A stretch of DNA of 10,553 bases, from contig CAAENW010000147.1 of NCBI GenBank assembly GCA_900757265.1, forward strand, positions 1-10,553, read 5' to 3'. Below the pieces are notes generated by a model. That model made no database searches. It was given only the letters and a program-made list of their open reading frames with translations, and was not told the DNA's origin. Each line of letters begins with the position of its first letter. The stretch's first letter is position 1. The position numbers and the translations under genes are program-made. This document shows, in pieces, positions 1 through 10,553 of the stretch. The DNA is from an uncultured Collinsella sp. (GTDB lineage Bacteria; Actinomycetota; Coriobacteriia; Coriobacteriales; Coriobacteriaceae).

Positions 1-43
1 AGGCCGCGGCAAGCGCGGCCTCGCGGGTCAACGTATGCGCGGG
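1..43. other. Left edge, downstream of the HMA gene; no assignable gene
   Basis: These bases follow the stop codon of the HMA protein when read on the minus strand. They are GC-rich and stay open in at least one minus-strand frame, but no ATG and no convincing ribosome binding site is visible. In genomes with this gene order a metal-transporting P-type ATPase often follows, but nothing here proves it. Confidence 0.3.
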
Positions 44-262
44 TTAGAGAATGATCTCGCAGTCCGGCTCGGCGTCGGCGGTGAACTCAACGACGCGGTC
101 CAGGACCTCGTCGAACTTGGCGTCGTCGGCCTCGAGCGTCAGCTTCTGGGTCATAAAGTTGACCGAAACGGACTTGACGCCCTCGAGCTTGGCAAGTTCG
201 TCCTGAAGCTCGCGCGCGCAGTTGGCGCAATCGATCTCGTCGAGCTTAAACTGCTTTTTCAT
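44..262 (-). CDS. Stand-alone heavy-metal-associated (HMA) domain protein
   Basis: A 72-residue cytoplasmic protein that is essentially one HMA (ferredoxin-like beta-alpha-beta) domain of the type found in CopZ chaperones and at the N terminus of CadA/ZntA ATPases. The metal-binding loop is IDCANCA, with C12 and C15 as the CxxC pair. The usual GMxCxxC methionine is replaced (EIDCANC), a form I associate more with Zn/Cd-type HMA domains than with copper chaperones; that is family knowledge, not proof. A third cysteine (C68) sits in an acidic tail (DAEPDCEIIL). The start is supported by an AAAGGA Shine-Dalgarno (270-275) 7 nt upstream. It lies 63 nt downstream of the ArsR-type regulator on the same strand, so the two are probably one transcript. 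Likely role: delivering or buffering a soft or borderline metal ion, perhaps for a transporter encoded off the left edge. Confidence 0.88.
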   Translation of the reverse strand: MKKQFKLDEIDCANCARELQDELAKLEGVKSVSVNFMTQKLTLEADDAKFDEVLDRVVEFTADAEPDCEIIL

Positions 263-325
263 GGTGGGTTCCTTTCCCTGTGTTAGCGGTCTGGGTGCCG
301 GCCGCGCTGATACCGTGGGTGATTG

Positions 326-691
326 CTATTCGCAGATATGGCTCATGCCCTGGTTAAGCATGGTGTAGACGTGATCGTCGGCGAGCGAGTAGAGAATGTT
401 GCGGCCGTCGCGGCGGAACTTGACCAGGTGCGACTGCTTAAGCGTGCGCAGCTGGTGCGATACTGCCGACTGCGAGGTTGCGGTCGCCTCGGCGATGTCG
501 GCCACGCAGAGCTCGCGGCCCATGAGGGCATAGAGGATCTTGATGCGTGTGGTGTCGCTGAAGACCTTGAACAGGTCGGCCAGGTCGTACAACAGCTCCT
601 CGTCGGGAAGGTCCTCGGGCGAGCAGGTGGTGGGGACGATCGGCTCGGTGGCCTCGATGCCAGTCTTTGTTTCATCAGCGTGGCTGCTCAT
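326..691 (-). CDS. ArsR/SmtB-family metal-responsive transcriptional repressor
   Basis: A 121-residue winged-helix repressor. Residues 35-105 form the ArsR fold: DLFKVFSDTTRIKILYAL, then ELCVADIAE (alpha3), then SQSAVSHQLRTLKQSHLV as the recognition helix (about 73-90), and a wing RRDGRNILYSL. The C-terminal helix carries D105, H107, H118 and E121. This spacing (DxH, 11 apart, then HxxE) equals the alpha5 zinc site of SmtB (D104, H106, H117, E120). C62 and D65 match alpha3 residues of SmtB, and C23 in the N-terminal arm could complete a second alpha3N-type site. From the family, apo-repressor binds the operator and Zn, Cd or Co releases it. An AAAGGA ribosome site lies 7 nt upstream of the ATG. 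The gene leads the operon with the HMA protein and is probably autoregulated through the dyads at 706-760. The exact metal is inferred. Confidence 0.93.
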   Translation of the reverse strand: MSSHADETKTGIEATEPIVPTTCSPEDLPDEELLYDLADLFKVFSDTTRIKILYALMGRELCVADIAEATATSQSAVSHQLRTLKQSHLVKFRRDGRNILYSLADDHVYTMLNQGMSHICE

Positions 692-705
692 TGCAATATC
701 CTTTC

Positions 706-760
706 ATATGAACATGCGCTCATATAATTTACTTTCGATTATATGAGCGCATGTTCACAT
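706..760. promoter_or_regulatory. Paired ArsR-type operators forming a long inverted repeat
   Basis: Arms 709-728 and 738-757 are perfect 20-bp reverse complements around a 9-nt spacer (23 of 24 if extended to 705-728/738-761). Each arm is itself a dyad with ATATGA...TCATAT-like ends: 706-725 (centre 715.5), and 741-760 with one mismatch in the outer six pairs (centre 750.5). The ATATGA/TGTTCA character fits SmtB/CzrA-class operators. The two dyads are 35 bp apart. One lies between the -35 and -10 boxes and the other lies just downstream of the predicted start site, so bound repressor would block RNA polymerase. Confidence 0.82.
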
Positions 761-765
761 GTCAA
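738..765 (-). promoter_or_regulatory. Consensus sigma-70-type promoter of the arsR-HMA operon
   Basis: On the minus strand a perfect TTGACA (760-765) is followed after 16 nt by a perfect TATAAT (738-743). Transcription would start near 731, about 40 nt before the ArsR-type start codon. The spacer is filled by an operator dyad, so a very strong promoter is expected to be silenced by its own repressor until metal is present. Confidence 0.85.
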
Positions 766-842
766 TACAATTTGCGATAATTTCGATGACTGCTTGCCGC
801 CTCGGCGATTTTCTGCGGGTTGGGAGACATCGACGCAATGCT

Positions 843-872
843 CGCCAACATATTTCGAGATGTTCGGCCAGC
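843..872 (+). repeat. 30-nt dispersed repeat, copy A
   Basis: It matches copy C in 26 of 30 positions in inverted orientation. Conserved blocks are CCWACAT, TTTCGAG and TTCGGCCAGC. It is convergent with copy B 158 bp away. Read in frame it encodes PTYFEMFGQ, a conservative variant of the peptides read from copies B and C. Confidence 0.8.
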
Positions 873-1030
873 ATGCTAAGAAAGCCACCTTGAGAAGCAT
901 TAGAACTGTTCATATTTGTACTTTATCGTGTTAAATACCGCGAGAATCAGTTCTTCCTCTACGGGAGTTCCTGCAGAATCAGTTTTATCTAAAGTTATAT
1001 TGAGCATTGCTGCAGCCAATCTGGCACATC

Positions 1031-1060
1031 GGTGGCCGAATAAGTCGAAAAATGTAGGTG
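1031..1060 (-). repeat. 30-nt dispersed repeat, copy B
   Basis: It matches copy C in 27 of 30 positions (differences are G/C, G/A and G/C). It lies 20 nt beyond the stop codon of the nuclease-like gene. The minus-strand reading is PPTFFDLFGH. Confidence 0.85.
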
Positions 1061-1080
1061 GACATCCGCAGAGATCGCCT

Positions 1081-2289
1081 TTAGAAGAGCGAATTCTCAA
1101 TTAGATCAATAATCGTGTCGTCTTCCGTGCGGTTTTCATCGATTTTTGCGAAAATGTCGCTTTCCCAAGGCCCATTGATTTCCTCAGCAAGGGCCCCGAC
1201 GTGTTGCATGTCGTCGGGTTCTGGCACATCGTTGATGCTCGGGTCATCAGCTTGCGGATATTGGCTTGCAATTTCGCGCTTGGCGGCCTCTTCTTCTTTG
1301 AGTGTCTCCAGGACGCGGCGGCCGTATTCGAAGTAGCGCCGCAAGACAAATTGACGAAGAGTTTCTTGCAGGATGGCGAAGTTATCCGGGAGTCGACCGG
1401 GCCATATCTTCTCGCGAATGCGAATCGCTTCCATGACCCGTCTAAAAGCGGACTGCTTGAAAAACGAATGACGACTAACTGTGATAACGGCATATCCCAT
1501 GTTTCGCAGCGTGTTTCGGCGTTCCTCGTCAATTGATTGCTGTTCGGGCTCGTCGTGGTAAAAGCCGTTGTATTCGATATCGGTCATCGAATTTTCGAGC
1601 AGCGCGTCGAGGTAGAAAACCGTCCGTCGCGTTAGGGCGGCGTATCTTTTGGGGACTGGGATCGGATAGTCCGTTTTGATAACGCGTATGGCTAAGCCAC
1701 CCATTGACTTGGGCATTGTCAGCATCATGACAAACGCCGTTTCGAGTGGGGAGCGACAGCCTTCGCGTACATAAGAAAGTGCCTTAAGTGCTTTATTAGA
1801 TCCACGATACCCCGATGCCTCTGAAAAGAAGGCTCTGAGCTCTTCAACGCTGGTTAGGGCTGGGCGCTCGCGATATTGAGTTTCGTCGGACGTTCCAAGC
1901 GCGTAGGAGCCGCAGATTTCAAAGTAATACTCAACGAGCTCCGAAAGGTTGAGGTCGGCTGCTGCTTCTAACGCGCACAGCTTGATATCGACGATGTAGA
2001 CGTTCGGCTCGAGTTCTAGGTAGCTTTCTGCATCAAACGTATAGCGCGTGCAGTGGCAGATGCAGCCCTTGCGGTGCCTTTTGGCATTATTGGAAAACGT
2101 CAGCACATGGATGCTTTCAGAATCGACATTCTTTCTGTTGAGCCATGCTCGCGCCGCTTCCAGGTTGGACGTGGTCGGCGCAGACACCTTGATCTTTTCC
2201 ATAGATATGGGATCGGTCGCGTGGCTTGCGAGCGAGTTGACTGTTTGGTATACAGCGCGTGCCGTGGTATGTGACAGAACGATTCCCAT
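1081..2289 (-). CDS. Coriobacterial hypothetical protein with DUF559/Vsr-like PD-(D/E)XK nuclease-type domain
   Basis: About 402 residues from the preferred ATG at 2289 (MGIVLSHTTARAVY). The frame stays open to 2559, but that extra 90-residue segment looks random in composition and contains repeat copy D, so it is probably not translated; no strong ribosome site marks either start. Residues below count from 2289. The N-terminal half (about 1-190) resembles proteins I associate with Coriobacteriia: an LSHTTA start, a central predicted alpha/beta region and a SPLETAFVMMLTMP helix. A cysteine cluster CICHC lies at 76-80. Residues 220-290 look like a DUF559/Vsr-type restriction-endonuclease fold: FYLDALLE with D228, TDIEYNGFYH with E239, then a D/E/R-rich helix and GYAVITVSR. 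The C-terminal 100 residues form a charged helical tail (LETLKEEEAAKREI) not typical of minimal DUF559 proteins. Function is unknown; a defence or DNA-processing role is speculation. Lower GC than its neighbours and flanking repeats suggest horizontal acquisition. Confidence 0.75.
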   Translation of the reverse strand: MGIVLSHTTARAVYQTVNSLASHATDPISMEKIKVSAPTTSNLEAARAWLNRKNVDSESIHVLTFSNNAKRHRKGCICHCTRYTFDAESYLELEPNVYIVDIKLCALEAAADLNLSELVEYYFEICGSYALGTSDETQYRERPALTSVEELRAFFSEASGYRGSNKALKALSYVREGCRSPLETAFVMMLTMPKSMGGLAIRVIKTDYPIPVPKRYAALTRRTVFYLDALLENSMTDIEYNGFYHDEPEQQSIDEERRNTLRNMGYAVITVSRHSFFKQSAFRRVMEAIRIREKIWPGRLPDNFAILQETLRQFVLRRYFEYGRRVLETLKEEEAAKREIASQYPQADDPSINDVPEPDDMQHVGALAEEINGPWESDIFAKIDENRTEDDTIIDLIENSLF

Positions 2290-2400
2290 ACGCGCATGAT
2301 GGCATAGCGGACGCCATATACGCTCGAAACTTCGGGCAACGGTATTGGGGCGCGGCTTATCTTCTGCGAACGGTGGGTTTTTGAGCTGTCGTATTGAGGG

Positions 2401-2439
2401 GGGGCAGCTTCGGCTGGGGAGGTTTCTGTCGGCTGCCCC
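2401..2439. other. Competing hairpins upstream of the nuclease-like gene
   Basis: GGGGCAGC (2401-2408) pairs perfectly with GCTGCCCC (2432-2439) across a 23-nt loop. A smaller hairpin, CAGC-TTCG-GCTG (2405-2416), uses part of the same left arm, so the two folds exclude each other. In a minus-strand leader this could be an attenuator; on the plus strand it is followed by ATTTT. Function is unproven. Confidence 0.4.
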
Positions 2440-2502
2440 ATTTTGGTGAACTTTAGTTGCGGATTCGTAGCTTCTAAGCGTTTTTGCCGACCGCTCAGAT
2501 GC

Positions 2503-2532
2503 CTCACCAACATAATTTGAGTTATTCGGCCT
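2503..2532 (+). repeat. 30-nt dispersed repeat, degenerate copy D
   Basis: It matches copy C in about 22 of 30 positions and is better over its central part (CCAACAT, TTTGAG, TTCGGCC). Its orientation is that of copy A, convergent with copy C 130 bp away. The equivalent reading is PT-stop-FELFG, so the peptide frame is broken by TAA. Confidence 0.6.
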
Positions 2533-2662
2533 TATCCTATACGAATGGTGCGATCGCAACGTCCTATTCGAATTGATTCAGGTAGATTTATAGGGCTTGG
2601 TTGCGAAATTGGGGCGACTATAGCGCTCGATTGCGGTTCAAGGGGCCTTGACTAGTGGTTCA

Positions 2663-2692
2663 GCTGGCCGAACAACTCGAAAAATGTAGGTG
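2663..2692 (-). repeat. 30-nt dispersed repeat, copy C
   Basis: Best reference copy, with matches of 27/30 to B and 26/30 to A. The minus-strand reading is PPTFFELFGQLNH followed by TAG. It lies upstream of the nuclease-like gene and faces copy D. Confidence 0.85.
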
Positions 2693-2741
2693 GGCCAACC
2701 TGCCGACTATGTGAAGCACGCGTATTCGCTCGTTTTGATGA

Positions 2742-2777
2742 AAACTAGGGTGCAGCCATAAGGCTGCGCCCTAGTTT
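2742..2777 (-). terminator. Rho-independent terminator of the exonuclease gene (bidirectional shape)
   Basis: A 16-bp stem (2742-2757 with 2762-2777; one G-U wobble at 2751/2768) closes an ATAA loop. On the minus strand the stem ends in TTTT. It lies 65 bp past the exonuclease stop codon and shields the nuclease-like gene from read-through. Confidence 0.88.
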
Positions 2778-2842
2778 ACTGCGTGCCGGTGTGCCCAGAC
2801 GGATTGCGCTGTGCCTGGCAGGCGCTCCCGCAGATGGATCGG

Positions 2843-3811
2843 TTATTTCGCGAATAGGTTCTTGAGGTTGAACTCGGCTTGGACGGTGCGGAGCATGAGG
2901 TCGGTGTCGTCCAAGCCCAGGTGCTGCTCGTTGGCGTCGGCGGCGAGGGTTCCACGGCGGCGTGCCCAGTTCTCGAGCGCGGCGGGGGCGGACTCGCGGG
3001 GGAGCGAGCGCACGTCGGCGTCCAGGCTGCGGCAGATCTGGCGCGAGTCGATGACGATGATCTTACCCGCGCGGCGTGCCTCGGCGTAACCGTCCAGGTG
3101 AATCTTGAACCAGCTGTCCTCAAAGGCGGCGTTATGCGCCATGTACGGGTACTTCTTCATAAGCTTGAGCAGCTGCTTTTGCAGCTCCTTGTTCTCGCGG
3201 AAGGGCGTTTTGCCGTCGATGTCGTCCCAGGTGATGTGGTGGATATTCGACAGCGGTACATCCTCGCCGCGGTAGATGTCGGGCAGGCCGCAGTAGTGTG
3301 CCTCGGCGTCATGCGGGACGGCGTCGCTGGTGAGCTCCATGATCTCCCAGCCCACGTTGATGATATAACCACGCTCGGGTGCACGGCCGGTGGTCTCGAT
3401 GTCGATGCCGAGCACGGTGCCCTGGATGGGCTTGCGGGCGTAGGCCACGCCGAGCGCGTCGCGGTCGCCGCGGATCTCGCGCATGACCGACGCGGCGGTG
3501 CGCTTTTGCATCTTACCGATGGCCGCGCAGGTGTCGGCATCGGACAGACCGCGCGAAAGCGTCGCGGGCGTCACGTTGCGCAGACGTGCCTCGCCAATCT
3601 GGTCGCACAGGTCGCGGTTGCGGTCGGCCAGGTCGCGCACGGTGGCAAAGTCGAAACCGGGGTCGCCCTCGGCGGTAAAGTACTCGGTTTCGAGCACCTT
3701 AAGGGCCTCCTCGCCCTTCTGGCGCTCGGATTCCATGGCGCCGTGATCGCCATAGATAAACATGGGGATAAACGGCTGACGCTCGTATTCGAGTGCTTGT
3801 GAAACGTTCAT
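2843..3811 (-). CDS. DnaQ-like DEDDh 3'-5' exonuclease domain protein
   Basis: A 322-residue cytoplasmic protein. The C-terminal part (about 132-320) is a DEDDh exonuclease of the DnaQ/RNase T superfamily. Exo I is GIDIETTG with D137 and E139, Exo II is HNAAFED with D232, and Exo III is HLGLDD with H297 and D302. These acidic residues bind two divalent metals and H297 is the general base, so exonuclease activity on DNA or RNA is expected. The first ~130 residues are a separate, mostly helical charged segment (ESERQKGEEALKVLETEYFTAEGD; later CAAIGKMQKRTAASVMREIRGDRDALGVAYARKPIQG) that I do not recognise; it may hold substrate or partner contacts. A clear AAGGAG ribosome site lies 7 nt before the ATG. 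The gene is monocistronic: it is divergent from the permease and ends at the terminator at 2742-2777. The substrate cannot be read from the sequence. Confidence 0.9.
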   Translation of the reverse strand: MNVSQALEYERQPFIPMFIYGDHGAMESERQKGEEALKVLETEYFTAEGDPGFDFATVRDLADRNRDLCDQIGEARLRNVTPATLSRGLSDADTCAAIGKMQKRTAASVMREIRGDRDALGVAYARKPIQGTVLGIDIETTGRAPERGYIINVGWEIMELTSDAVPHDAEAHYCGLPDIYRGEDVPLSNIHHITWDDIDGKTPFRENKELQKQLLKLMKKYPYMAHNAAFEDSWFKIHLDGYAEARRAGKIIVIDSRQICRSLDADVRSLPRESAPAALENWARRRGTLAADANEQHLGLDDTDLMLRTVQAEFNLKNLFAK

Positions 3812-3905
3812 ATAACTGCTCCTTGGACGGGCCGCACCGCGCGGCTCGGGTTCATTGAGATGTGGCGAGATGATAGTTTACCATGGGCAACTATTGGCAT
3901 CGCGC

Positions 3906-3951
3906 CTAGGACAACTACAATACCCTAGTTGACCGCTAGGACTTTTACAAT
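3906..3951 (+). promoter_or_regulatory. Direct repeat CTAGGAC-N3-TACAAT upstream of the permease
   Basis: CTAGGAC-AAC-TACAAT (3906-3921) and CTAGGAC-TTT-TACAAT (3936-3951) are 16-nt units exactly 30 bp apart, about three helical turns. The second TACAAT could be a -10 box giving a start 20-30 nt before the permease ATG, but no good -35 sits at the right distance (a TTGACC at 3929-3934 is only 11 nt away). This may be a pair of activator or repressor sites, or tandem promoters. Which of these is not resolved. Confidence 0.5.
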
Positions 3952-3983
3952 GCTGCCGAAAGACACGAAAGGTTCCATCCGTC

Positions 3984-5072
3984 ATGGATTTGCTGATTGA
4001 TATTCTGCTCGACGCCGGCAAGGACACGCTCTCGCTGGTGCCGTTTTTGTTGGTGACGTATCTGGCCCTCGAGACCTTGGAGCACGTCGCGGGCGACCGC
4101 GTTAACGGGGCCATCAAGCGCGCCGGCGCCGCGGGTCCCGTGGTTGGCTCGTTGCTGGGCATGGTGCCGCAGTGCGGCTTTTCGGCAATGGCGGCAACGC
4201 TGTACGCCGGTCGCGTCGTGACGCTGGGCACCTTGGTGGCGGTGTTCCTTTCGACCTCCGACGAGATGCTGCCGCTGCTACTTGCCGAGCAGGTTCCCGT
4301 GCAGACTATGGCGATGCTTTTGGCTTCGAAAGCGCTTATCGCACTGGTCACGGGCTTTATTGTAGATGCCGCCATTCGCGGTCTGCGTCGCAACGCCCGC
4401 GCGCATGCGGCGATTCGCCGTACCGTGCTGGGGACCGCTGCCAATCCGGCTCATGTGAACTGCGCGCACGACGACCACAGCGGCGGTGACATCATCGACG
4501 AGGTGGCCGAGGCGGGCGTGAGCGCCGACCACATCCACGAGCTGTGCGAGCGCGACCATTGCGGTTGTGATGAAGACGAGAACGAGCACGAATACGGACA
4601 TGGCCACGATCACGGTCATGAGGGCGAATATGAACACCATGATGGTCACGGTCACTCCCATTCCCACGAAGGGACGCCTGTCCTGTCGATTATCCGCAGC
4701 GCGATCTCCCACACCGTGCAGGTATCGGTATTCATTTTCCTGGTGACGCTGATTCTGGTTGCCGTGCTCGAGACGTTCGGCGAATCGGCGATTGAGCAGT
4801 TCCTGCGCGGTAACGAGACGCTTGCGGTCCTGGGCTCGGCACTCGTCGGCCTGATCCCCAACTGCTCGGCCAGCGTCGTCATCACGCAACTGTACCTGGA
4901 AGGCGCGCTGCAGCTGGCCCCGATGCTCGCCGGCACGCTCATTTCCGCCGGCGTGGGTTATCTGGTGCTGTTCCGCACCAACCGCAGCGCCCGCGAAAAT
5001 GCCGTGTTCCTGATTATGATGTACGTCATCGGCGCGGGCTGGGGTCTCATCCTTTCCGCCTTTGGCCTCTAA
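3984..5072 (+). CDS. Membrane metal efflux permease, ArsP_2 / putative manganese transporter type, with His-rich loop
   Basis: A 362-residue integral membrane protein built as two similar halves. The first half (about 1-131) has four hydrophobic segments and the motif MVPQCGFSAMA (P62, Q63, C64). The second half (about 237-362) has LIPNCSASVVITQLYLEGAL (P292, N293, C294). These paired P-[QN]-C motifs are, to my recollection, typical of the family annotated as arsenic efflux protein or putative manganese transporter (Pfam ArsP_2). Between the halves lies a ~100-residue soluble loop. Its part 183-228 is packed with His, Asp, Glu and Cys (HCGCDEDENEH, then repeated HGH, HDH and HSH), an obvious site for Zn, Mn, Ni or Cu binding. 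The ATG is preceded by GAAAGG with an 11-nt spacing, rather long. Substrate is uncertain: the loop argues for a divalent cation rather than an organoarsenical. Transcription is divergent from the exonuclease and ends at a repeat pair. Confidence 0.85.
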   Translation: MDLLIDILLDAGKDTLSLVPFLLVTYLALETLEHVAGDRVNGAIKRAGAAGPVVGSLLGMVPQCGFSAMAATLYAGRVVTLGTLVAVFLSTSDEMLPLLLAEQVPVQTMAMLLASKALIALVTGFIVDAAIRGLRRNARAHAAIRRTVLGTAANPAHVNCAHDDHSGGDIIDEVAEAGVSADHIHELCERDHCGCDEDENEHEYGHGHDHGHEGEYEHHDGHGHSHSHEGTPVLSIIRSAISHTVQVSVFIFLVTLILVAVLETFGESAIEQFLRGNETLAVLGSALVGLIPNCSASVVITQLYLEGALQLAPMLAGTLISAGVGYLVLFRTNRSARENAVFLIMMYVIGAGWGLILSAFGL

Positions 5073-5104
5073 GTAGATTATTGGGACATGTCTTACGATC
5101 TACC
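5073..5104 (+). repeat. Palindromic intergenic repeat, unit 1
   Basis: The outer arms GTAGAT and ATCTAC pair, with the core TTGGGACATGTC between them. It is the inverted copy of unit 2 (26 of 32 positions identical). It begins on the base after the permease stop codon and could act as its 3' hairpin. Confidence 0.8.
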
Positions 5105-5141
5105 TCTGTGACCAGGGCATTCCCCGCCGCCAAAACAAATA

Positions 5142-5174
5142 GGTAGATTTCCGGACATGTCCCAAAAATCTACC
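5142..5174 (-). repeat. Palindromic intergenic repeat, unit 2
   Basis: GGTAGAT and ATCTACC form the outer arms and GGACATGTCC (5153-5162), a perfect 10-bp palindrome, forms the core. It ends 4 nt before the stop codon of the YaiI-family gene. I recall this motif as common between genes in Collinsella; this is memory, not a search. It may serve as a bidirectional terminator or mRNA 3' end stabiliser. Confidence 0.8.
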
Positions 5175-5178
5175 TTGG

Positions 5179-5661
5179 TTAGTGCAGCAACTCGGTGAGG
5201 TTGCGTTTAAAGCGGGCGCGGTCTTCGCTGGTAAATGCTGCCGGACCGCGAGTGCGTCCGCCGGCGCGGCGTATCTTCTTTTCCTCGTGGCGAATAAACA
5301 GCTGCATGTCGATAGTCGCCTTGTCGTACACGCGCCCGCGCACACCGATGGCGGCGGCATCGCGCCCGAGCACCATGCTCGCCAAGCCAATGTCCTGCGT
5401 CACGACCACGTCGCCCGCCTGCAGGCGTTCGACAATGGCAAAGTCGGCGCTGTCGGCGCCCACGCTCACGTCGAGCGTCGTGACCCAAAAGCCGCGTCGC
5501 GCGTGCTCGGCATCGCGCGGGTCGTCGCGGCGAATGTGTCGTTCCAGGTTTTGCGTGCTGTTGCCGGCGATAACAACGGCGACGCCCGCCCGCCGCGCGC
5601 AGTCAATCGACTCGCGCGTGACCGGGCAGGCGTCGGCATCAATAAAGAGCGTTCGCGGCAT
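5179..5661 (-). CDS. YaiI/YqxD family protein (UPF0178, DUF188)
   Basis: A 160-residue cytoplasmic protein of the conserved but poorly characterised UPF0178 family. Family hallmarks are present in order: FIDADACPV at the N terminus (D8, D10, acidic pocket of a PIN-like fold), VVIAGNSTQ, DVSVGADSADFAI (about 64-76), VVTQDIGLASMVL (D90 region) and the C-terminal GGRTRGPAAFTSEDRARFKRNL. The cluster of aspartates resembles PIN/NYN-type nucleases, so a metal-dependent nuclease activity is possible but not shown. Length is normal for the family. The ATG directly abuts the TAG stop of the upstream HdeD-like gene and no strong ribosome site precedes it, so translation is probably coupled. Confidence 0.93.
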   Translation of the reverse strand: MPRTLFIDADACPVTRESIDCARRAGVAVVIAGNSTQNLERHIRRDDPRDAEHARRGFWVTTLDVSVGADSADFAIVERLQAGDVVVTQDIGLASMVLGRDAAAIGVRGRVYDKATIDMQLFIRHEEKKIRRAGGRTRGPAAFTSEDRARFKRNLTELLH

Positions 5662-6264
5662 CTAGTGCACCAGTTTGCCAAATTGAATAGCGCGAACAAT
5701 CAGCGTTACGCCAAACACCAGCAGCGCGGCGCCGCTAAAGATGACGAGCATCTTGGCCGACCACAGCGGATAGATAAACACGAACATGCCGGCGATGATG
5801 GAAAGTGCGCCGCTCAGGATGGCGAGGGCGCGGTTGGACGAAAGCTCGGACTCCAGAATGGACATGACACCTTCGACAATCCAGCCAAAGCCGGCCACGA
5901 TAACCACCATCGTGGTGAGCGTCGCGGTCGAGAAGGCCTGGTTGCGCAGGATTATGACGCCGCCCAAGATAATGAGTAGGTTGGAGATGATGCTCGTCAC
6001 GCGCCAGCCGGTGGGCAGCAGCGGCTCAAAAATGGCAGTGAACAGTCTGATGGCAGCAGTGATTACAAAGTAAAAACCCAGGACGGTCGTCAAAAAGACG
6101 AGGGACTTGGCGGGTGCAAAAAGCAGCGCGATACCAGCAATGAGTGCTAAGACGCCCGTGATGGCGTAGATCCAGCGTACGGCCTTGACGGCTTTGCCCG
6201 CCATGCTTTTCTCGTCAAATCCAAACTGGCTCGATTTTTGGTCATCGTTCTTAAAGATGCCCAT
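5662..6264 (-). CDS. HdeD-like DUF308 membrane protein
   Basis: A 200-residue inner-membrane protein. After a polar N terminus of about 27 residues there are six predicted transmembrane helices in three pairs (roughly 29-51, 54-76, 87-107, 112-134, 144-164 and 171-192), each short and glycine/alanine rich (WIYAITGVLALIAGIALLF; ALAILSGALSIIAGMFVFIY). This repeated helical pattern is that of DUF308, which includes E. coli HdeD, linked there to acid resistance; the role here is unknown. A strong AAAGGAG ribosome site lies about 5 nt before the ATG. It forms a two-gene unit with the YaiI-family gene. No confident promoter was found in the divergent gap upstream. Confidence 0.88.
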   Translation of the reverse strand: MGIFKNDDQKSSQFGFDEKSMAGKAVKAVRWIYAITGVLALIAGIALLFAPAKSLVFLTTVLGFYFVITAAIRLFTAIFEPLLPTGWRVTSIISNLLIILGGVIILRNQAFSTATLTTMVVIVAGFGWIVEGVMSILESELSSNRALAILSGALSIIAGMFVFIYPLWSAKMLVIFSGAALLVFGVTLIVRAIQFGKLVH

Positions 6265-6499
6265 AATGTCTCCTTTCCGTGCGGCGTAAGCCTTGATCGT
6301 TACAACCAGTATCGCTTAAAGGCGCTGGCGTATGGGTCGGGGAGGGCGAAACGTAACCCAAAGGTCCCGAATTGTTTCCGTTGTTCCCCACGTCGCGATT
6401 TTCTATTCAACAGGTGTAGAACATTGCAGCCCTGTTCGTTATTGCCTACGTTTTAGGTTAGATTTTCCTAAAGACAATTGGCTTGAATTGGGGGTCCCT
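6265..6499. other. Divergent intergenic region with a small dyad
   Basis: 235 bp between the HdeD-like and nitroreductase genes. A 6-bp inverted repeat TTTAGG (6452-6457) / CCTAAA (6467-6472) with a 9-nt AT-rich centre lies 28 bp before the nitroreductase start and could be an operator. No consensus promoter is evident for either direction. Confidence 0.4.
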
Positions 6500-7171
6500 A
6501 TGAACGAAGCAGTTCCCGCAGCGCCGGTAAGCGCAGAATCGATGGCAAAGCAGGGCTGCGAAAAGCTCGGTCTGGAAGCGTTTGATGCGCTGGTCCGTCG
6601 TGCCCGTACGTGCCGTCGCTTTGACGAGTCCATGCGCGTGCCGCGCGAGTTTTTGCTCGAGCTGGCGGAGCTGGCGCACCTGGCTCCCTGCGGTGCCAAT
6701 GCTCAGCGTCTGCGTTTTCATGTGGTAAGCGGTGCAGAGGACTGCGCGCGTGTATTTGACGAGCTTGCATGGGCCGGCGCGTTTAAGGATTGGCCGGGTC
6801 CTGCCGAGGGCGAGCGCCCGACCGGCTATATTGCGATTCTGGCCGAGCGCGCCGTTCCAGGCAAGCCTGCCGCTCCCATTACCGAGGTCGACACGGGCAT
6901 TGCCGCGCAGACGATGATGCTCGCCGCCCGCAGCGCCACGCCCGAGGTGGCAGCCTGCATGTTCAAGGCCTTTACGCCCCGCGCGATCGAAGCTATGGGG
7001 CTCAATAACGACAAGTATGAGCTCAAGCTGATCATGGCGTTTGGCGTTCCGGCCGAGACACAGGTGATCGATGCGATCGATTCCAACCCCGACGGCTCCA
7101 TCAATTATTGGCGCGATGAGGCGCAGGTGCACCACGTACCCAAGCGTCCGCTTGCCGACGTGCTGCTGTAG
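6500..7171 (+). CDS. Nitroreductase family protein (FMN-dependent)
   Basis: A 223-residue protein of the nitroreductase fold. The FMN-phosphate signature appears near the N terminus as RRARTCRRFDESMRVPREFLLEL (about 34-56), followed by LAPCGANAQRLRFHVV, the usual SP.S.N.QPW.F-like segment. The middle section ITEVDTGIAAQTMMLAA (about 131-147) is the dimer helix that in the family reads D.g.a.qnl.LaA. The C-terminal KLIMAFGVPAE matches the conserved iGyP strand. The substrate is unknown; the family reduces nitro compounds, quinones or enones with NAD(P)H. The ATG at 6500 is chosen because GGGGG (6490-6494) precedes it and the homology begins soon after; an upstream in-frame start at 6332 adds 56 residues of unlikely composition. 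It is followed in the same direction by two phosphatases, but a hairpin separates them. Confidence 0.85.
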   Translation: MNEAVPAAPVSAESMAKQGCEKLGLEAFDALVRRARTCRRFDESMRVPREFLLELAELAHLAPCGANAQRLRFHVVSGAEDCARVFDELAWAGAFKDWPGPAEGERPTGYIAILAERAVPGKPAAPITEVDTGIAAQTMMLAARSATPEVAACMFKAFTPRAIEAMGLNNDKYELKLIMAFGVPAETQVIDAIDSNPDGSINYWRDEAQVHHVPKRPLADVLL

Positions 7172-7204
7172 TTGTGCGTCGTTGCGGTGCAATCCGGCGG
7201 CAAA

Positions 7205-7239
7205 ATCACCACAAAGGCTCCTGTCCCCTTTGTGGTGGT
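7205..7239. repeat. CACCACAAAGG hairpin between nitroreductase and phosphatase
   Basis: CACCACAAAGG (7207-7217) pairs perfectly with CCTTTGTGGTG (7227-7237) around CTCCTGTCC; one wobble and one A-T pair extend it. No U-tract follows on the plus strand (the minus strand has ATTTTG), so as a plus-strand terminator it is weak. I recall similar hairpins repeated in Collinsella-like genomes, unverified here. Confidence 0.65.
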
Positions 7240-7254
7240 ACGAGGGGAGGGTGT

Positions 7255-7797
7255 GTGGCAGATCTGTATTTGGTGCGGCATGGGCAGACTGAGCTCAATG
7301 TGCAGAGCATTTTGCAGGGCTGGCACGATTCGCCGCTTACGGCGCGCGGGCGCGAGCAGGCGCTGACGGCGCGTACGGCGTTTGCGGCGCGTGGCGTGGC
7401 CTTTGATCATGTGTATTCCTCGCCGTTGGGCCGGGCGCGGCATACGGCCGAGCTTATCGTTGGCGAGGGCCGTTCCATTGAGCTGGTCGATGACCTGCGT
7501 GAGTGGCATTTTGGCTCGCTGGAGGGCACATCAAATCGCGAGATGCCGCCGCAGCCCTGGGGCGATTATCCGGTGGCCTTTGGCGGCGAGTCGGAAGTGC
7601 AGCTTCAGTCGCGCATGGTCGCGGCGCTGTCCCGTATTATGGCCCGGCCGCAGCACGACTGCGTGCTGGCGGTTTCCCATGGCTCAGCCTGCCAGGAGTT
7701 TCTTGAGTATGTGACTGGCGGGGGAGAGCTACCCGACAACGGTGCCGTGCTTCATTTTGGCTATTGCGACGGGGCGTTTTCGCTCTTGGGTTGGTAA
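7255..7797 (+). CDS. Histidine phosphatase family protein, copy 1
   Basis: About 180 residues, phosphoglycerate-mutase-like fold. The catalytic RHG motif LVRHGQT is at residues 6-12 (phosphohistidine at H9). YSSPLGRARHTAE supplies the second arginine, REWHFG the acidic proton donor, and LAVSHGSA the second catalytic histidine. The start is the GTG at 7255 because AGGGGAGG lies just upstream and the family begins a few residues before RHG; a more distal GTG at 7174 would translate the hairpin. The substrate is unknown; the family includes broad phosphomonoesterases and CobC-like enzymes. The next gene is a paralogue 17 nt downstream, so they are co-transcribed. Confidence 0.9.
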   Translation: MADLYLVRHGQTELNVQSILQGWHDSPLTARGREQALTARTAFAARGVAFDHVYSSPLGRARHTAELIVGEGRSIELVDDLREWHFGSLEGTSNREMPPQPWGDYPVAFGGESEVQLQSRMVAALSRIMARPQHDCVLAVSHGSACQEFLEYVTGGGELPDNGAVLHFGYCDGAFSLLGW

Positions 7798-7814
7798 CGA
7801 ACGAAAGGACCCCT

Positions 7815-8450
7815 ATGAATAAAGATCTGTATCTGGTCCGTCATGGACAGACGATATTCAACCTTAAGCGTATCATTCAGGGGTGGAGTGACTCGCCGCT
7901 TACGCAGTTGGGTTGCGACCAGGCGGCGCGCGCCGGCATGTTTTTACGTGCGCGCGGCATTGAGCCCGATCATGCCTACACCTCCACGCTTCATCGCACC
8001 GAGCAGACTATCGCCAACTTGTGGCCGGGCTTGGCGTACGAGCGCCTGGACGGCCTGCGTGAGTGGTTCTTTGGCGACTTTGAGGCCGAGCGCGTGATGC
8101 TTATGCCCGAGCGCCCGTGGCGCGACTTCTATCGGCAGTTTGGCGGCGAGGGCCAGATCCAGGTGCGCACGCGCATGGTGGCGACGCTGACCGATCTTAT
8201 GCAGCGTCCGGACCATACGTGCGTGCTCGCGGTAAGTCATGGCTCAGCTATCAAGGAGTTTTTGGACCACGTGCGGGGCGCGGCGGCCGACGAGCGCGAA
8301 CGCGTGCCGGGCAACTGCTCAGTGCTGCATTTTGCGTTTGACGATGCGGCCGATACGTTTGAACTGGTCGAAGTCTTTACGCAGGAAGACTACGCGCGCG
8401 AGCTGGGGCTAGAGCCGCTCGTGGCGGCGGCAGGTCCGCAGCGTGGATAA
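7815..8450 (+). CDS. Histidine phosphatase family protein, copy 2
   Basis: About 211 residues, same fold and layout as the preceding gene: LVRHGQT, then YTSTLHRTEQT, REWFFGDF, and LAVSHGSA. By eye the two proteins are roughly 45% identical across their length, so they arose by tandem duplication. This copy has a longer C-terminal tail (VEVFTQEDYARELGLEPLVAAAG). GAAAGGA precedes the ATG with about 5 nt spacing. All catalytic residues are kept, so both are probably active; the substrate is unknown. Transcription ends at the hairpin at 8499-8533. Confidence 0.92.
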   Translation: MNKDLYLVRHGQTIFNLKRIIQGWSDSPLTQLGCDQAARAGMFLRARGIEPDHAYTSTLHRTEQTIANLWPGLAYERLDGLREWFFGDFEAERVMLMPERPWRDFYRQFGGEGQIQVRTRMVATLTDLMQRPDHTCVLAVSHGSAIKEFLDHVRGAAADERERVPGNCSVLHFAFDDAADTFELVEVFTQEDYARELGLEPLVAAAGPQRG

Positions 8451-8498
8451 CGCTGACGTTGCGGCCCGGTTTACCGGCGTAATTGTTTGATGCGAAAA

Positions 8499-8533
8499 GG
8501 GCGGAGGTGCATGCGTTTGCTGCATCTCCGCCC
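8499..8533. terminator. Bidirectional terminator between convergent operons
   Basis: A 13-bp stem (8499-8511 with 8521-8533, one G-U wobble) with a 9-nt loop. It is followed by CTTGTTTGTTT on the plus strand and by TTTT on the minus strand, so it can end both the phosphatase transcript and the convergent DUF1015-like transcript. Confidence 0.85.
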
Positions 8534-8579
8534 CTTGTTTGTTTGGATGCTGGGTTTTCCAGCTTAGCGTTTGAGTTCG

Positions 8580-9269
8580 CTAGAACCGTGAGACCTGGTG
8601 AGTGAGCAGACCCGTCGGAACCTGCGGCGCGCTGCCGCTGACCTGCGCGGCGGGGAACAGCACGGCTACAGCAAAGTTGAACGGCTCTTTGCCAGAGTAG
8701 GCGCCGGCAGCGCGGGCCTCGTCGGCCAGAATCTGCGATGCCCCAGCCAGTGCGGCGACATAGGCGGAGTCACCGGCGAACACTGGGTCGGGCGCCTGAT
8801 CGAGCATGGCACGGATGGCGGCAACGGCGTCCTCGCGCTTGACCTCCCACACGCGATGTGTGACGCCCGCGGGATCGGTGACGGCGTAGAGCGATGCGCC
8901 CTCTTTGGCAGCGCTCAAAATGATATCCATGACGGGCGACGCCTCGTAGGCGAGCGACACGGGGCGCGGCTGCACCTTGAGCTCGGCGATCGCGCGCGCG
9001 GTGGCGAGTGCGTCGATGCTCTCGGCGGCAGTCTCGTCGCCGCCCGTCAGCACGTTAACCGGGCAAATCGCCACGACGCCCGTCGCACGTCCCGGCTCGC
9101 CCGAGCATTCGTACACGTAATACGCCGCACCCGGGTCCTTGAGCATCAGACCATCGGCAATGGCTCCGCGCAGAGCATCGTTGCCGCTCAGGATGCTGCC
9201 CATTGCAGGTAGTGCCTCGAGCACGCGGTCCTGAGCCGGGCGGATGCAGGGAAACGGAAGTGCTTTCAT
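8580..9269 (-). CDS. Short DUF1015-like protein lacking the HH motif
   Basis: A 229-residue protein that I place, with moderate confidence, with the DUF1015 family. Supporting segments are the N terminus LPFPCIRPAQDRV (family form: PF..lRp), DPGAAYYVYEC at about 45-55 (family: p.yYvYe), and VTHRVWEVKREDAVAAIRAML at about 136-156 (family: .hrlW.i.d...i..l). DUF1015 proteins then carry a conserved ADGHHR segment; here the equivalent position reads FAGDSAYVAALAGA (164-177), with no histidines. It is also about half the usual ~400 residues, so it looks like a reduced or diverged member rather than a frameshifted one, since the frame is intact and a clean terminator follows. The AGGA ribosome site lies 7 nt before the ATG. 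It sits 40 nt downstream of the M20 peptidase, so one transcript is likely. Function unknown. Confidence 0.72.
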   Translation of the reverse strand: MKALPFPCIRPAQDRVLEALPAMGSILSGNDALRGAIADGLMLKDPGAAYYVYECSGEPGRATGVVAICPVNVLTGGDETAAESIDALATARAIAELKVQPRPVSLAYEASPVMDIILSAAKEGASLYAVTDPAGVTHRVWEVKREDAVAAIRAMLDQAPDPVFAGDSAYVAALAGASQILADEARAAGAYSGKEPFNFAVAVLFPAAQVSGSAPQVPTGLLTHQVSRF

Positions 9270-9309
9270 GGGGAGGTCCTAACGCACGAGTCGGTTTGTT
9301 CGCGGCTTA

Positions 9310-10533
9310 TTATGCCCCAACTTGGCCGCTCGCGTCCCAGAGCACGTTATCGGCGAGCGCGATTAGCACCTGCTGACAACGAACGATGTCGGCGTGGGGC
9401 ACATATTCGTTGGGCTTGTGGGCGAGCGCGAGCGAGCCTGGGCCATAGCTCATGCAGTTACGGTTACCCGTCTTGCCGGCAATGACGGCAGTGTCGGTGT
9501 AGCCGGTAAAGAAGCCGACGGTCGTGTCCGCGTCCGTCACGTCATCGGCGGCACGCTTGAGCGCTGCTAGAAGGGGAGAGTTCGGGTCGCGCTCGATGGC
9601 GGGACGGTCGCCCGTCACGGTGTAGCTGCCATGGCAACCGGGAACGGCGGCTTCGGCGACGGCGATGGCATGCTCGACCATATTGATTGCGGCGGCCGTA
9701 TCGGTCGGCGGGGTCAGGCGCATGTCGACCCAGACTTTGGCGCGGTCGGGTACGACGTAGGGGCGATATCCGCCCTCGATTTGGCCAAACGTGATGGTCG
9801 AAGGCCCCAGCTCATCGTGCGCGGGCAGCGCCGCAAACGCGCGACGAAGCGAACACACGACCTCGGCCATGGCGGCAACGGCATCCGCGCCCTTCCAAGG
9901 CTGGCTCGCATGCGCCGTCACGCCAGCCATTTCAATCTCGAACCACGTACGCCCCTTGTGCGCCACCTGGATCTGTCCGTCGGTGGGCTCGGTGTCCAGC
10001 ACCCATTCGCGCGAGCTGACCCAGCCAGCATCGATCGCGGCCTCTGAGCCGCGCATGAAGTCTTCCTCGTCGACCGAGCAGATGAGCGAAAAGCCGCGGC
10101 GTGGCAGCGCGCCATCCGCCGCCACGCGCTCGAGCGTATGGACCAGTGCGGCAATGGCGCAGGCCAGGCCACCCTTCATATCGCAGGCACCGCGGCCATA
10201 GAGTTTATCGTCGCGCACAACCGCCCCAAGCGGTGCGATGTCTGCGTCCCAGCCATCGCCCAAGGTGACGGTATCCATGTGACAGATGTAGACGAGTCGG
10301 GCCTCGTCGCTTACGGCCGGCACGGTAATCATAAGGTTGCGGCGCCCGGGGAGTACTTCGAGCTCCTCAATCTGCACGGCATCGAGCGCAGGACTATCAA
10401 GCTGCGTCAGCTGCTGCTCAATGAGCCTCTTAATGAAGTGCTCGATCTCGTCCTCATACGCGCCCGGGTCTGAGCTGTCGATCTGCACCAGCTGTTTTGC
10501 CAGTTCCCAGGCTTCCTGTTCTTCTCTTTCCAT
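9310..10533 (-). CDS. M20 family metallopeptidase (ArgE/DapE/CPG2-like)
   Basis: A 407-residue cytoplasmic metal-dependent amidohydrolase. Ligand motifs appear in order: YICHMDTV (H85, D87), RGACDMKGG (bridging D118), CSVDEED (general base E156, metal ligand E157), VLDTEPT (E182 region) and AHKPNEYV (H372). A dimerisation (lid) domain spans about 190-305, starting at HKGRTWFEIEMAGVTAHASQP. This arrangement is that of peptidase family M20, whose members cut N-acyl amino acids, succinyl-diaminopimelate or dipeptides. The N-terminal ~60 residues and VQIDSSDPG fit. I cannot fix the substrate: ArgE and DapE cannot be separated here, and the partner gene is not from arginine or lysine synthesis. 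A ribosome site AAGGAG (10546-10551) sits 12 nt before the ATG, rather far. Confidence 0.92.
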   Translation of the reverse strand: MEREEQEAWELAKQLVQIDSSDPGAYEDEIEHFIKRLIEQQLTQLDSPALDAVQIEELEVLPGRRNLMITVPAVSDEARLVYICHMDTVTLGDGWDADIAPLGAVVRDDKLYGRGACDMKGGLACAIAALVHTLERVAADGALPRRGFSLICSVDEEDFMRGSEAAIDAGWVSSREWVLDTEPTDGQIQVAHKGRTWFEIEMAGVTAHASQPWKGADAVAAMAEVVCSLRRAFAALPAHDELGPSTITFGQIEGGYRPYVVPDRAKVWVDMRLTPPTDTAAAINMVEHAIAVAEAAVPGCHGSYTVTGDRPAIERDPNSPLLAALKRAADDVTDADTTVGFFTGYTDTAVIAGKTGNRNCMSYGPGSLALAHKPNEYVPHADIVRCQQVLIALADNVLWDASGQVGA

Positions 10534-10553
10534 AGTATTTATCTTCTCCTTCC

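Follow-up and report, generated by a model that had tools for sequence, protein, structure and literature searches.

A Vsr-like nuclease gene of Collinsella bracketed by two facing repeat pairs: perhaps a small mobile DNA system

Why is a single nuclease-like gene bracketed by two pairs of facing repeats, and do these repeats belong to the gene, to its site or to something else? This question is raised by a stretch of 10,553 nucleotides (hereafter the window) from an uncultured Collinsella sp. (assembly GCA_900757265.1, contig CAAENW010000147.1, positions 1 to 10,553), in which four copies (A to D) of a repeat arm form two facing pairs, one on each side of a gene for a protein with a Vsr-like nuclease domain. 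Comparison within the genus and the order suggests, with the balance lying about even, that this nuclease family has such a pair as its DNA partner, i.e. that the protein acts on the pair and that the pairs are low-copy dispersed elements; judged from the sequences, gene and repeats are perhaps a small mobile DNA system. The features concerned are:

838..1065, downstream facing pair, 228 bp with the extended arms
845..869, plus strand, core of repeat arm A (extended arm begins at 838)
1034..1058, minus strand, core of repeat arm B (extended to 1065)
1081..2289, minus strand, gene for a protein of 402 amino acids (open reading frame (ORF); start from family alignment; Pfam DUF559 and MTES_1575 below cut-off; model and structure comparison)
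2500..2697, upstream facing pair, 198 bp with the extended arms
2507..2531, plus strand, core of repeat arm D (extended arm begins at 2500)
2666..2690, minus strand, core of repeat arm C (extended to 2697)

Since the family alignment places the start of the gene at the ATG ending at 2289, some 210 bp separate the upstream pair from the start codon, and the downstream pair follows the stop codon at a distance of 18 bp. The arms were recovered both by a general, pattern-free repeat search (direct families D10 and D12; inverted pairs I2, I4, I5 and I9) and by scanning the whole window with the pattern CCHACATNWTTYGAGNTNTTCGGCC (about 25 nt, at most 3 mismatches), which matched exactly four times, at A, B, D and C. 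The original prediction of four copies arranged as two facing pairs around one gene, with no further copies in the window, was thereby confirmed. No match to CCHACATNWTTYGAGNTNTTCGGCC appeared in 200 dinucleotide shuffles of the window, a control that is too favourable because the pattern was built from those same four copies. From core to core the downstream pair measures 214 bp (845-1058) and the upstream pair 184 bp (2507-2690). The gene is indeed of lower G+C content than the window (51.9% vs 59.5%), and the two pair elements have 42.5% and 48.0%. The interiors of the pairs, which had been described as dissimilar, proved so, their comparison being absent from the best 22 of 105 interior comparisons.

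The Vsr/DUF559-like nuclease domain lies at the C-terminus of the protein, at about residues 178-296 (profile matches, model and structure comparison), and its active-site-like residues E183, D228 and E239 are invariant. The N-terminal part of the predicted model possibly resembles the C-terminal domain of AbiEi antitoxins. The window protein scored 15.3 bits against Pfam DUF559 (cut-off 20.6) and 16.0 bits against MTES_1575 (cut-off 38.2); relatives at two other loci (L250 and L254) score over the DUF559 cut-off. At E values up to 0.1, none of 10 family proteins matched Pfam Transposase_17 (Y1/HUH transposases of IS200/IS605 type); their matches were to DUF559/MTES_1575, and NCBIfam gave no meaningful match; the family is one that most databases leave unnamed. 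Two candidate identities were rejected: a known defence model (in PADLOC, no match for the window protein and weak partial matches for 2 of 8 relatives) and a phage or plasmid origin (no match to window positions 780-2760 in the phage and plasmid collections, and no window arm motif in viral_contigs).

Are such pairs peculiar to this gene? A profile search listed several family members among its matches in each of 43 Collinsella genomes (assemblies of unstated completeness), and the family is present in at least 99 of 120 genomes sampled from the order. Flanks were scored for 40 Collinsella and 40 outside-genus loci, hand-picked for diversity among the matches listed and thus non-random, the latter from genomes not among the 43; one of them (L425) was dropped because its flank was too short, so that 39 were scored. 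The both-sides score is the best ungapped match between the 450 bp upstream and the 450 bp downstream of a gene (threshold 16), the pair score demands, at most 400 bp from the gene, a facing pair with a score of 15, and both thresholds were set after the data had been seen. A both-sides score of at least 16 was reached by 20 of 45 Collinsella loci vs 10 of 224 controls, among which are genes that themselves belong to such gene-repeat systems; after collapsing at 60% protein identity the figures were 17 of 37 clusters vs 2 of 66 matched controls (at least 300 bp of intergenic DNA on a side, family members removed). A facing pair was found beside 23 of 45 Collinsella members (20 of 37 clusters) vs 23 of 224 controls, and beside 13 of the 66 matched controls. 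Both control sets were taken from a single genome, within 400 kb of contiguous sequence and with ORF-based gene calls, and only the 66 had to have long intergenic space. Outside the genus, 33 of 39 members have a facing pair vs 19 of 86 neighbouring genes, and both-sided matches occur in 10 of 39 vs 4 of 86, where the neighbours may have a flank in common with the family gene; against the 66 matched controls the Fisher p values are 5e-11 (pair) and 8e-4 (both sides). By our count the pair is upstream only in 16 of the 33, downstream only in 10 and on both sides in 7.

The arms beside these genes measure about 20-45 nt, are alike within subfamilies and differ between them, so that the idea of one conserved motif beside all DUF559-like genes had to be given up: each subfamily has its own. 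The arms stay similar while the interiors drift. Read from outer to inner end, 15 of 52 arms contain TGGCA and 9 contain ACGATT, against expectations of 1.5 and 0.4 and counts of 4 and 3, respectively, for the opposite orientation, which suggests a loose common grammar from outer to inner. At one locus (L245), long arrays of a repeat of about 20 bp (ACTCAGCACTGACA and variants) stand in both orientations on both sides of the family gene.

The window site itself could be compared in 22 of the 43 genomes, which have the neighbouring gene at 99-100% identity: 10 carry the window gene, 9 a relative of 47-49% identity and 3 no gene. Three kinds of allele beside a near-identical neighbour imply that the site is exchanged. 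Homology with the other-gene and gene-less alleles stops at about 766-783 and restarts at 2843-2856, giving the following feature:

784..2842, variable stretch of the site, from comparison with strains carrying another gene or none

The original prediction had offered the repeats as possible ends of an exchangeable cassette and had named, as the outcome that would speak against this, boundaries lying outside the repeats in an empty-site strain; such boundaries were found, beyond 843 and 2692, and the repeats are therefore not cassette ends. All four arms are present in 10 of 10 genomes with the window gene, distinguishable arms standing in identical order in all of these assemblies; the three alleles that lack a gene at the site showed no facing pair. 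The upstream pair of one genome (G019) is split by about 1.5 kb of inserted DNA, which includes a transposase-like ORF of 444 amino acids (L181:2985-4319), whose family we assigned by our own reading.

The pairs also occur without a gene. For the window's subfamily, the 49% relative's and a third one, the same pairs stand alone at a few intergenic loci. The window arm pattern matches in 12 of 43 genomes, with up to 6 arms each. Two genomes that carry the relative instead (G009 and G021) have a gene-less solo pair beside a HAD-like gene, as does G001, with one arm one base short, and in G007 a solo pair lies at a third locus with a transaldolase-like neighbour (the gene names ArsR, exonuclease, transaldolase and HAD are our own reading). 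Among 21 genomes comparable at the HAD-like locus, the pair is present in 3, an alignable site with a short stretch replacing about 330 bp in 10, and larger changes in 8. The proposed link of the arms with this gene family is supported, facing pairs lying beside many relatives in and outside Collinsella; a link with this gene alone is not, gene-less pairs with the window's arms being found at two other loci.

The relative has a facing pair at most 15 bp from its stop codon in 8 of 8 loci (L009, L010 and L012-L017), and also at L018; at L011 the sequence ends too early for its downstream pair to be scored. Its arm pattern matches in 22 of 43 genomes (2-13 arms per genome), and the reversed control pattern gave no match in any of the 43. 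Its pairs are found at several loci unlinked to one another, the distance from arm to arm being fixed at 146-149, 155, 167, 187-189, 209-210 and once 223 bp. At one locus the pair is present in 8 of 22 genomes, and about 20 bp stand in for about 318 bp in the other 14. Two unlinked solo-pair loci carry diverged copies of one unit of about 370 bp (interiors z 6.5), the alignment extending about 60 and 85 bp past the arms; these related units are the clearest sign of copying. Neighbouring genes at 30 loci, which include several repeats of one locus from different genomes, are divergent in 8 cases, tandem in 8, convergent in 5 and uncallable in 9. In one intergenic stretch (L152, L154 and L158) the relative's facing pairs surround a terminator-like hairpin, the spacing in L154 being 167 bp vs 146-149 bp in most others, about two helical turns longer. 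A precise interior swap between two strains at one locus was considered and withdrawn: the alleles show diverged flanks just outside the arms and share short boxes inside, which indicates plain divergence with conserved arms. In many genomes the gene of the third subfamily is bracketed by a 67-bp element whose arms face each other, and G020 has this element at three further places. Matches to it number 2-12 per genome in 22 of 43 genomes, but the places come to roughly half that number, because the almost palindromic element is recorded once per strand.

The arm-to-arm spacings cluster near 146, 155-159, 167, 187-190 and 209-210 bp. With one value for each of 13 loci (two of them related copies), the spacings are phased at 10.5 bp (R 0.81, Rayleigh p 3.6e-5; p 0.00025 with the period scanned over 9-12 bp), the test leaving out the 223-bp variant of one locus, the 167-bp variant of another and L018 (189 bp, sharing its site with the relative's gene). 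This phasing is suggestive of two arms that lie on one face of the helix and would be bound together.

Taken as the partner of the nuclease, the facing pair would be acted on by the protein at both arms together, as a dimer on one DNA face; the Vsr-like domain would cut or nick at the pair, and units of about 320-370 bp centred on the pair would spread over evolutionary time. The gene with its pairs would then be the source and the solo pairs its non-autonomous copies, a mode of working like that of RAYT transposases with REPINs, with another enzyme fold and few copies. Binding of both arms, cutting and copying are steps that we infer. More tentatively, and with less than even confidence, a new class of bacterial replicators may be proposed, in which a phased facing pair would be recognised by a fusion of a Vsr-like nuclease with an AbiEi-like domain, and this protein would have spread the units of about 320-370 bp, as an analogue of RAYT-REPIN systems of separate origin that is widespread in the order.

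Several results weigh against the partner reading. Arm similarity showed no significant correlation with protein identity over 52 members (rho 0.058, p 0.11), and the phasing is not significant when six distinct spacing classes are used (p 0.11). No scored pair was found in 17 of 37 Collinsella clusters, and one both-sided match (L242) consists of G+C-rich low-complexity sequence. The relative itself was among the matches listed in only 9 of the 22 genomes with its motif, copies of which therefore persist without their gene. We saw no insertion event accompanied by target duplication, copies per genome are few, and the polymorphic units reach 45-65 bp past the arms and replace a short stretch, so that the segments present or absent between strains do not end at the arms. 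Foldseek gave no match reaching E 0.001 or better.

The main rival is autoregulation, because the promoters of AbiEi and Rv2827c contain paired inverted repeats of 23 bp to which these proteins themselves bind (PMC7319586, in the excerpts available). A repressor-nuclease would bind the inverted repeats as operators of its own gene, as AbiEi antitoxins do, with the solo pairs as a small regulon and the phased paired sites forming a loop; we consider this possible but unlikely. It is weakened by the pairs that are solely downstream in 10 of the 33 pair-bearing members outside the genus (7 others having them on both sides) and by the 49% relatives, which, where the downstream flank is available, have the pair only 3' of the gene. 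Some solo pairs sit between convergent genes, around a terminator-like hairpin, and the match to Rv2827c spans its C-terminal part, not the winged helix. Downstream-only and convergent-gene pairs make operators less probable. If operators they were, the family would be one of repressor-nucleases with unusual looping operators downstream of their own genes.

Less probable is a homing-type cassette, in which the Vsr-like nuclease would cut gene-less or foreign alleles, repair by homologous recombination would copy the gene with its flanks, and the pairs would serve as recognition or protection sites. The three gene-less alleles of the window site show no pair and thus no intact target, and solo pairs elsewhere stay uncut in genomes with the gene. 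That the pair acts as RNA, as a long stem-loop, terminator or leader, is very improbable: the arms are complementary and some pairs enclose terminator-like hairpins, but the arms of one element differ so as to break pairing, each end having its own variant, clustered spacing would not be expected of an RNA stem, and Rfam gave no match in the window, so that a known RNA was rejected. Recombinase-driven invertible segments, which usually show facing repeats at a distance of about 200 bp, can practically be dismissed on either side of the gene, the interior never occurring in both orientations and the arm order being the same in 10 of 10 gene-bearing genomes (assemblies).

Further observations concern the neighbourhood of the gene and other loci:

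705..761, probable operator of the ArsR-like gene, a strong palindrome (24 nt, loop of 9 nt) immediately upstream of it
2742..2777, G+C-rich, terminator-like hairpin between the upstream pair and the neighbouring gene, read from the sequence alone
4560..4670, histidine-rich stretch, perhaps metal-binding, inside a permease-like gene (3984-5072)
5073..5173, further facing repeat between two genes, with 38-nt arms 25 nt apart (GTAGATT..GGGACATGTC); related copies in loci L014 and L186
7257..8450, two adjacent similar genes, which we take to be phosphoglycerate-mutase-like, likely a tandem duplication

In G020, alternating arrays of a TGTTACAGATCGAGACA-like repeat, with steps mostly of 42 and 38 bp, lie on both sides of a gene at 1083742-1084836 that we read as AbiEi-resembling (L201, G020:C1:1083674-1085121); the repeat also occurs at 1050888, 1078003 and 1092617-1094246.

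Among known systems, the phage nuclease genes at exchange boundaries (PMC10448857, in the part available) are alike in that a nuclease gene stands at a site exchanged between close relatives; here the gene is chromosomal and has cognate facing repeats. With the Vsr-like homing endonuclease I-Bth0305I and DUF559 proteins the window protein has weak DUF559/MTES_1575 profile matches in common and possibly, from its predicted model, the fold of the nuclease domain; unlike them, it has repeat pairs beside its gene and falls below the Pfam cut-off, and no intron or intein was noticed. AbiEi-type antitoxins (AbiEi and Rv2827c) share a possible N-terminal fold match and, in the excerpts available, the binding of paired inverted repeats. 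Such type IV toxin-antitoxin systems consist of two genes, the toxin being a nucleotidyltransferase. Here, in contrast, the putative domain is fused to a nuclease, the repeats are also downstream and at other loci, and no partner toxin gene lies between the window neighbours, which were not themselves profile-searched; the nuclease gene is the only long ORF in 784-2842 apart from ORFs overlapping it.

The closest known arrangement appears, by analogy, to be RAYT-REPIN, with an unrelated enzyme. According to the available parts of two reports, RAYT genes are always flanked by two inverted REPs, coevolving with them and rapidly evolving (PMC2817692), and REP doublets (REPINs) are the unit that moves (PMC3116915). 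In both arrangements the gene diversifies fast and stands between inverted repeats of its own, the repeats form facing, subfamily-specific doublets, and further copies lie in intergenic DNA at other places, some of them close to the gene (PMC2817692, PMC3116915). Flanking by cognate inverted repeats is found here in the window, in 17 of 37 genus clusters and in 10 of 39 outside members, i.e. not in all. The present system differs in its Vsr/DUF559-like rather than Y1/HUH fold, in arms 150-210 bp apart (window's subfamily) and in copy number, with 2-13 arms per genome for the relative's motif and up to 6 for the window's, compared with usually more than 100 REPs per genome in those excerpts; as to coevolution, repeats are alike within subfamilies, with rho 0.058 (p 0.11) over the 52 members. 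It is not a RAYT, because the enzyme is unrelated, the copies are few and family-wide coevolution is without significant support; it may nevertheless work like one. In open-licence full texts, judged by titles and the beginnings of abstracts among the matches listed, no description of an association of this gene family with repeats was found. Cognate gene-repeat pairs of the RAYT-REPIN type, whose repeats are imperfect palindromes with a GT(A/G)G head, rest on one enzyme family. If the partner reading is true, each of several repeat families in Collinsella and its relatives would gain a named protein and the nuclease family a testable function, and the occurrence of one layout with another, unrelated enzyme would mean that the arrangement known from RAYTs and REPINs arose more than once.
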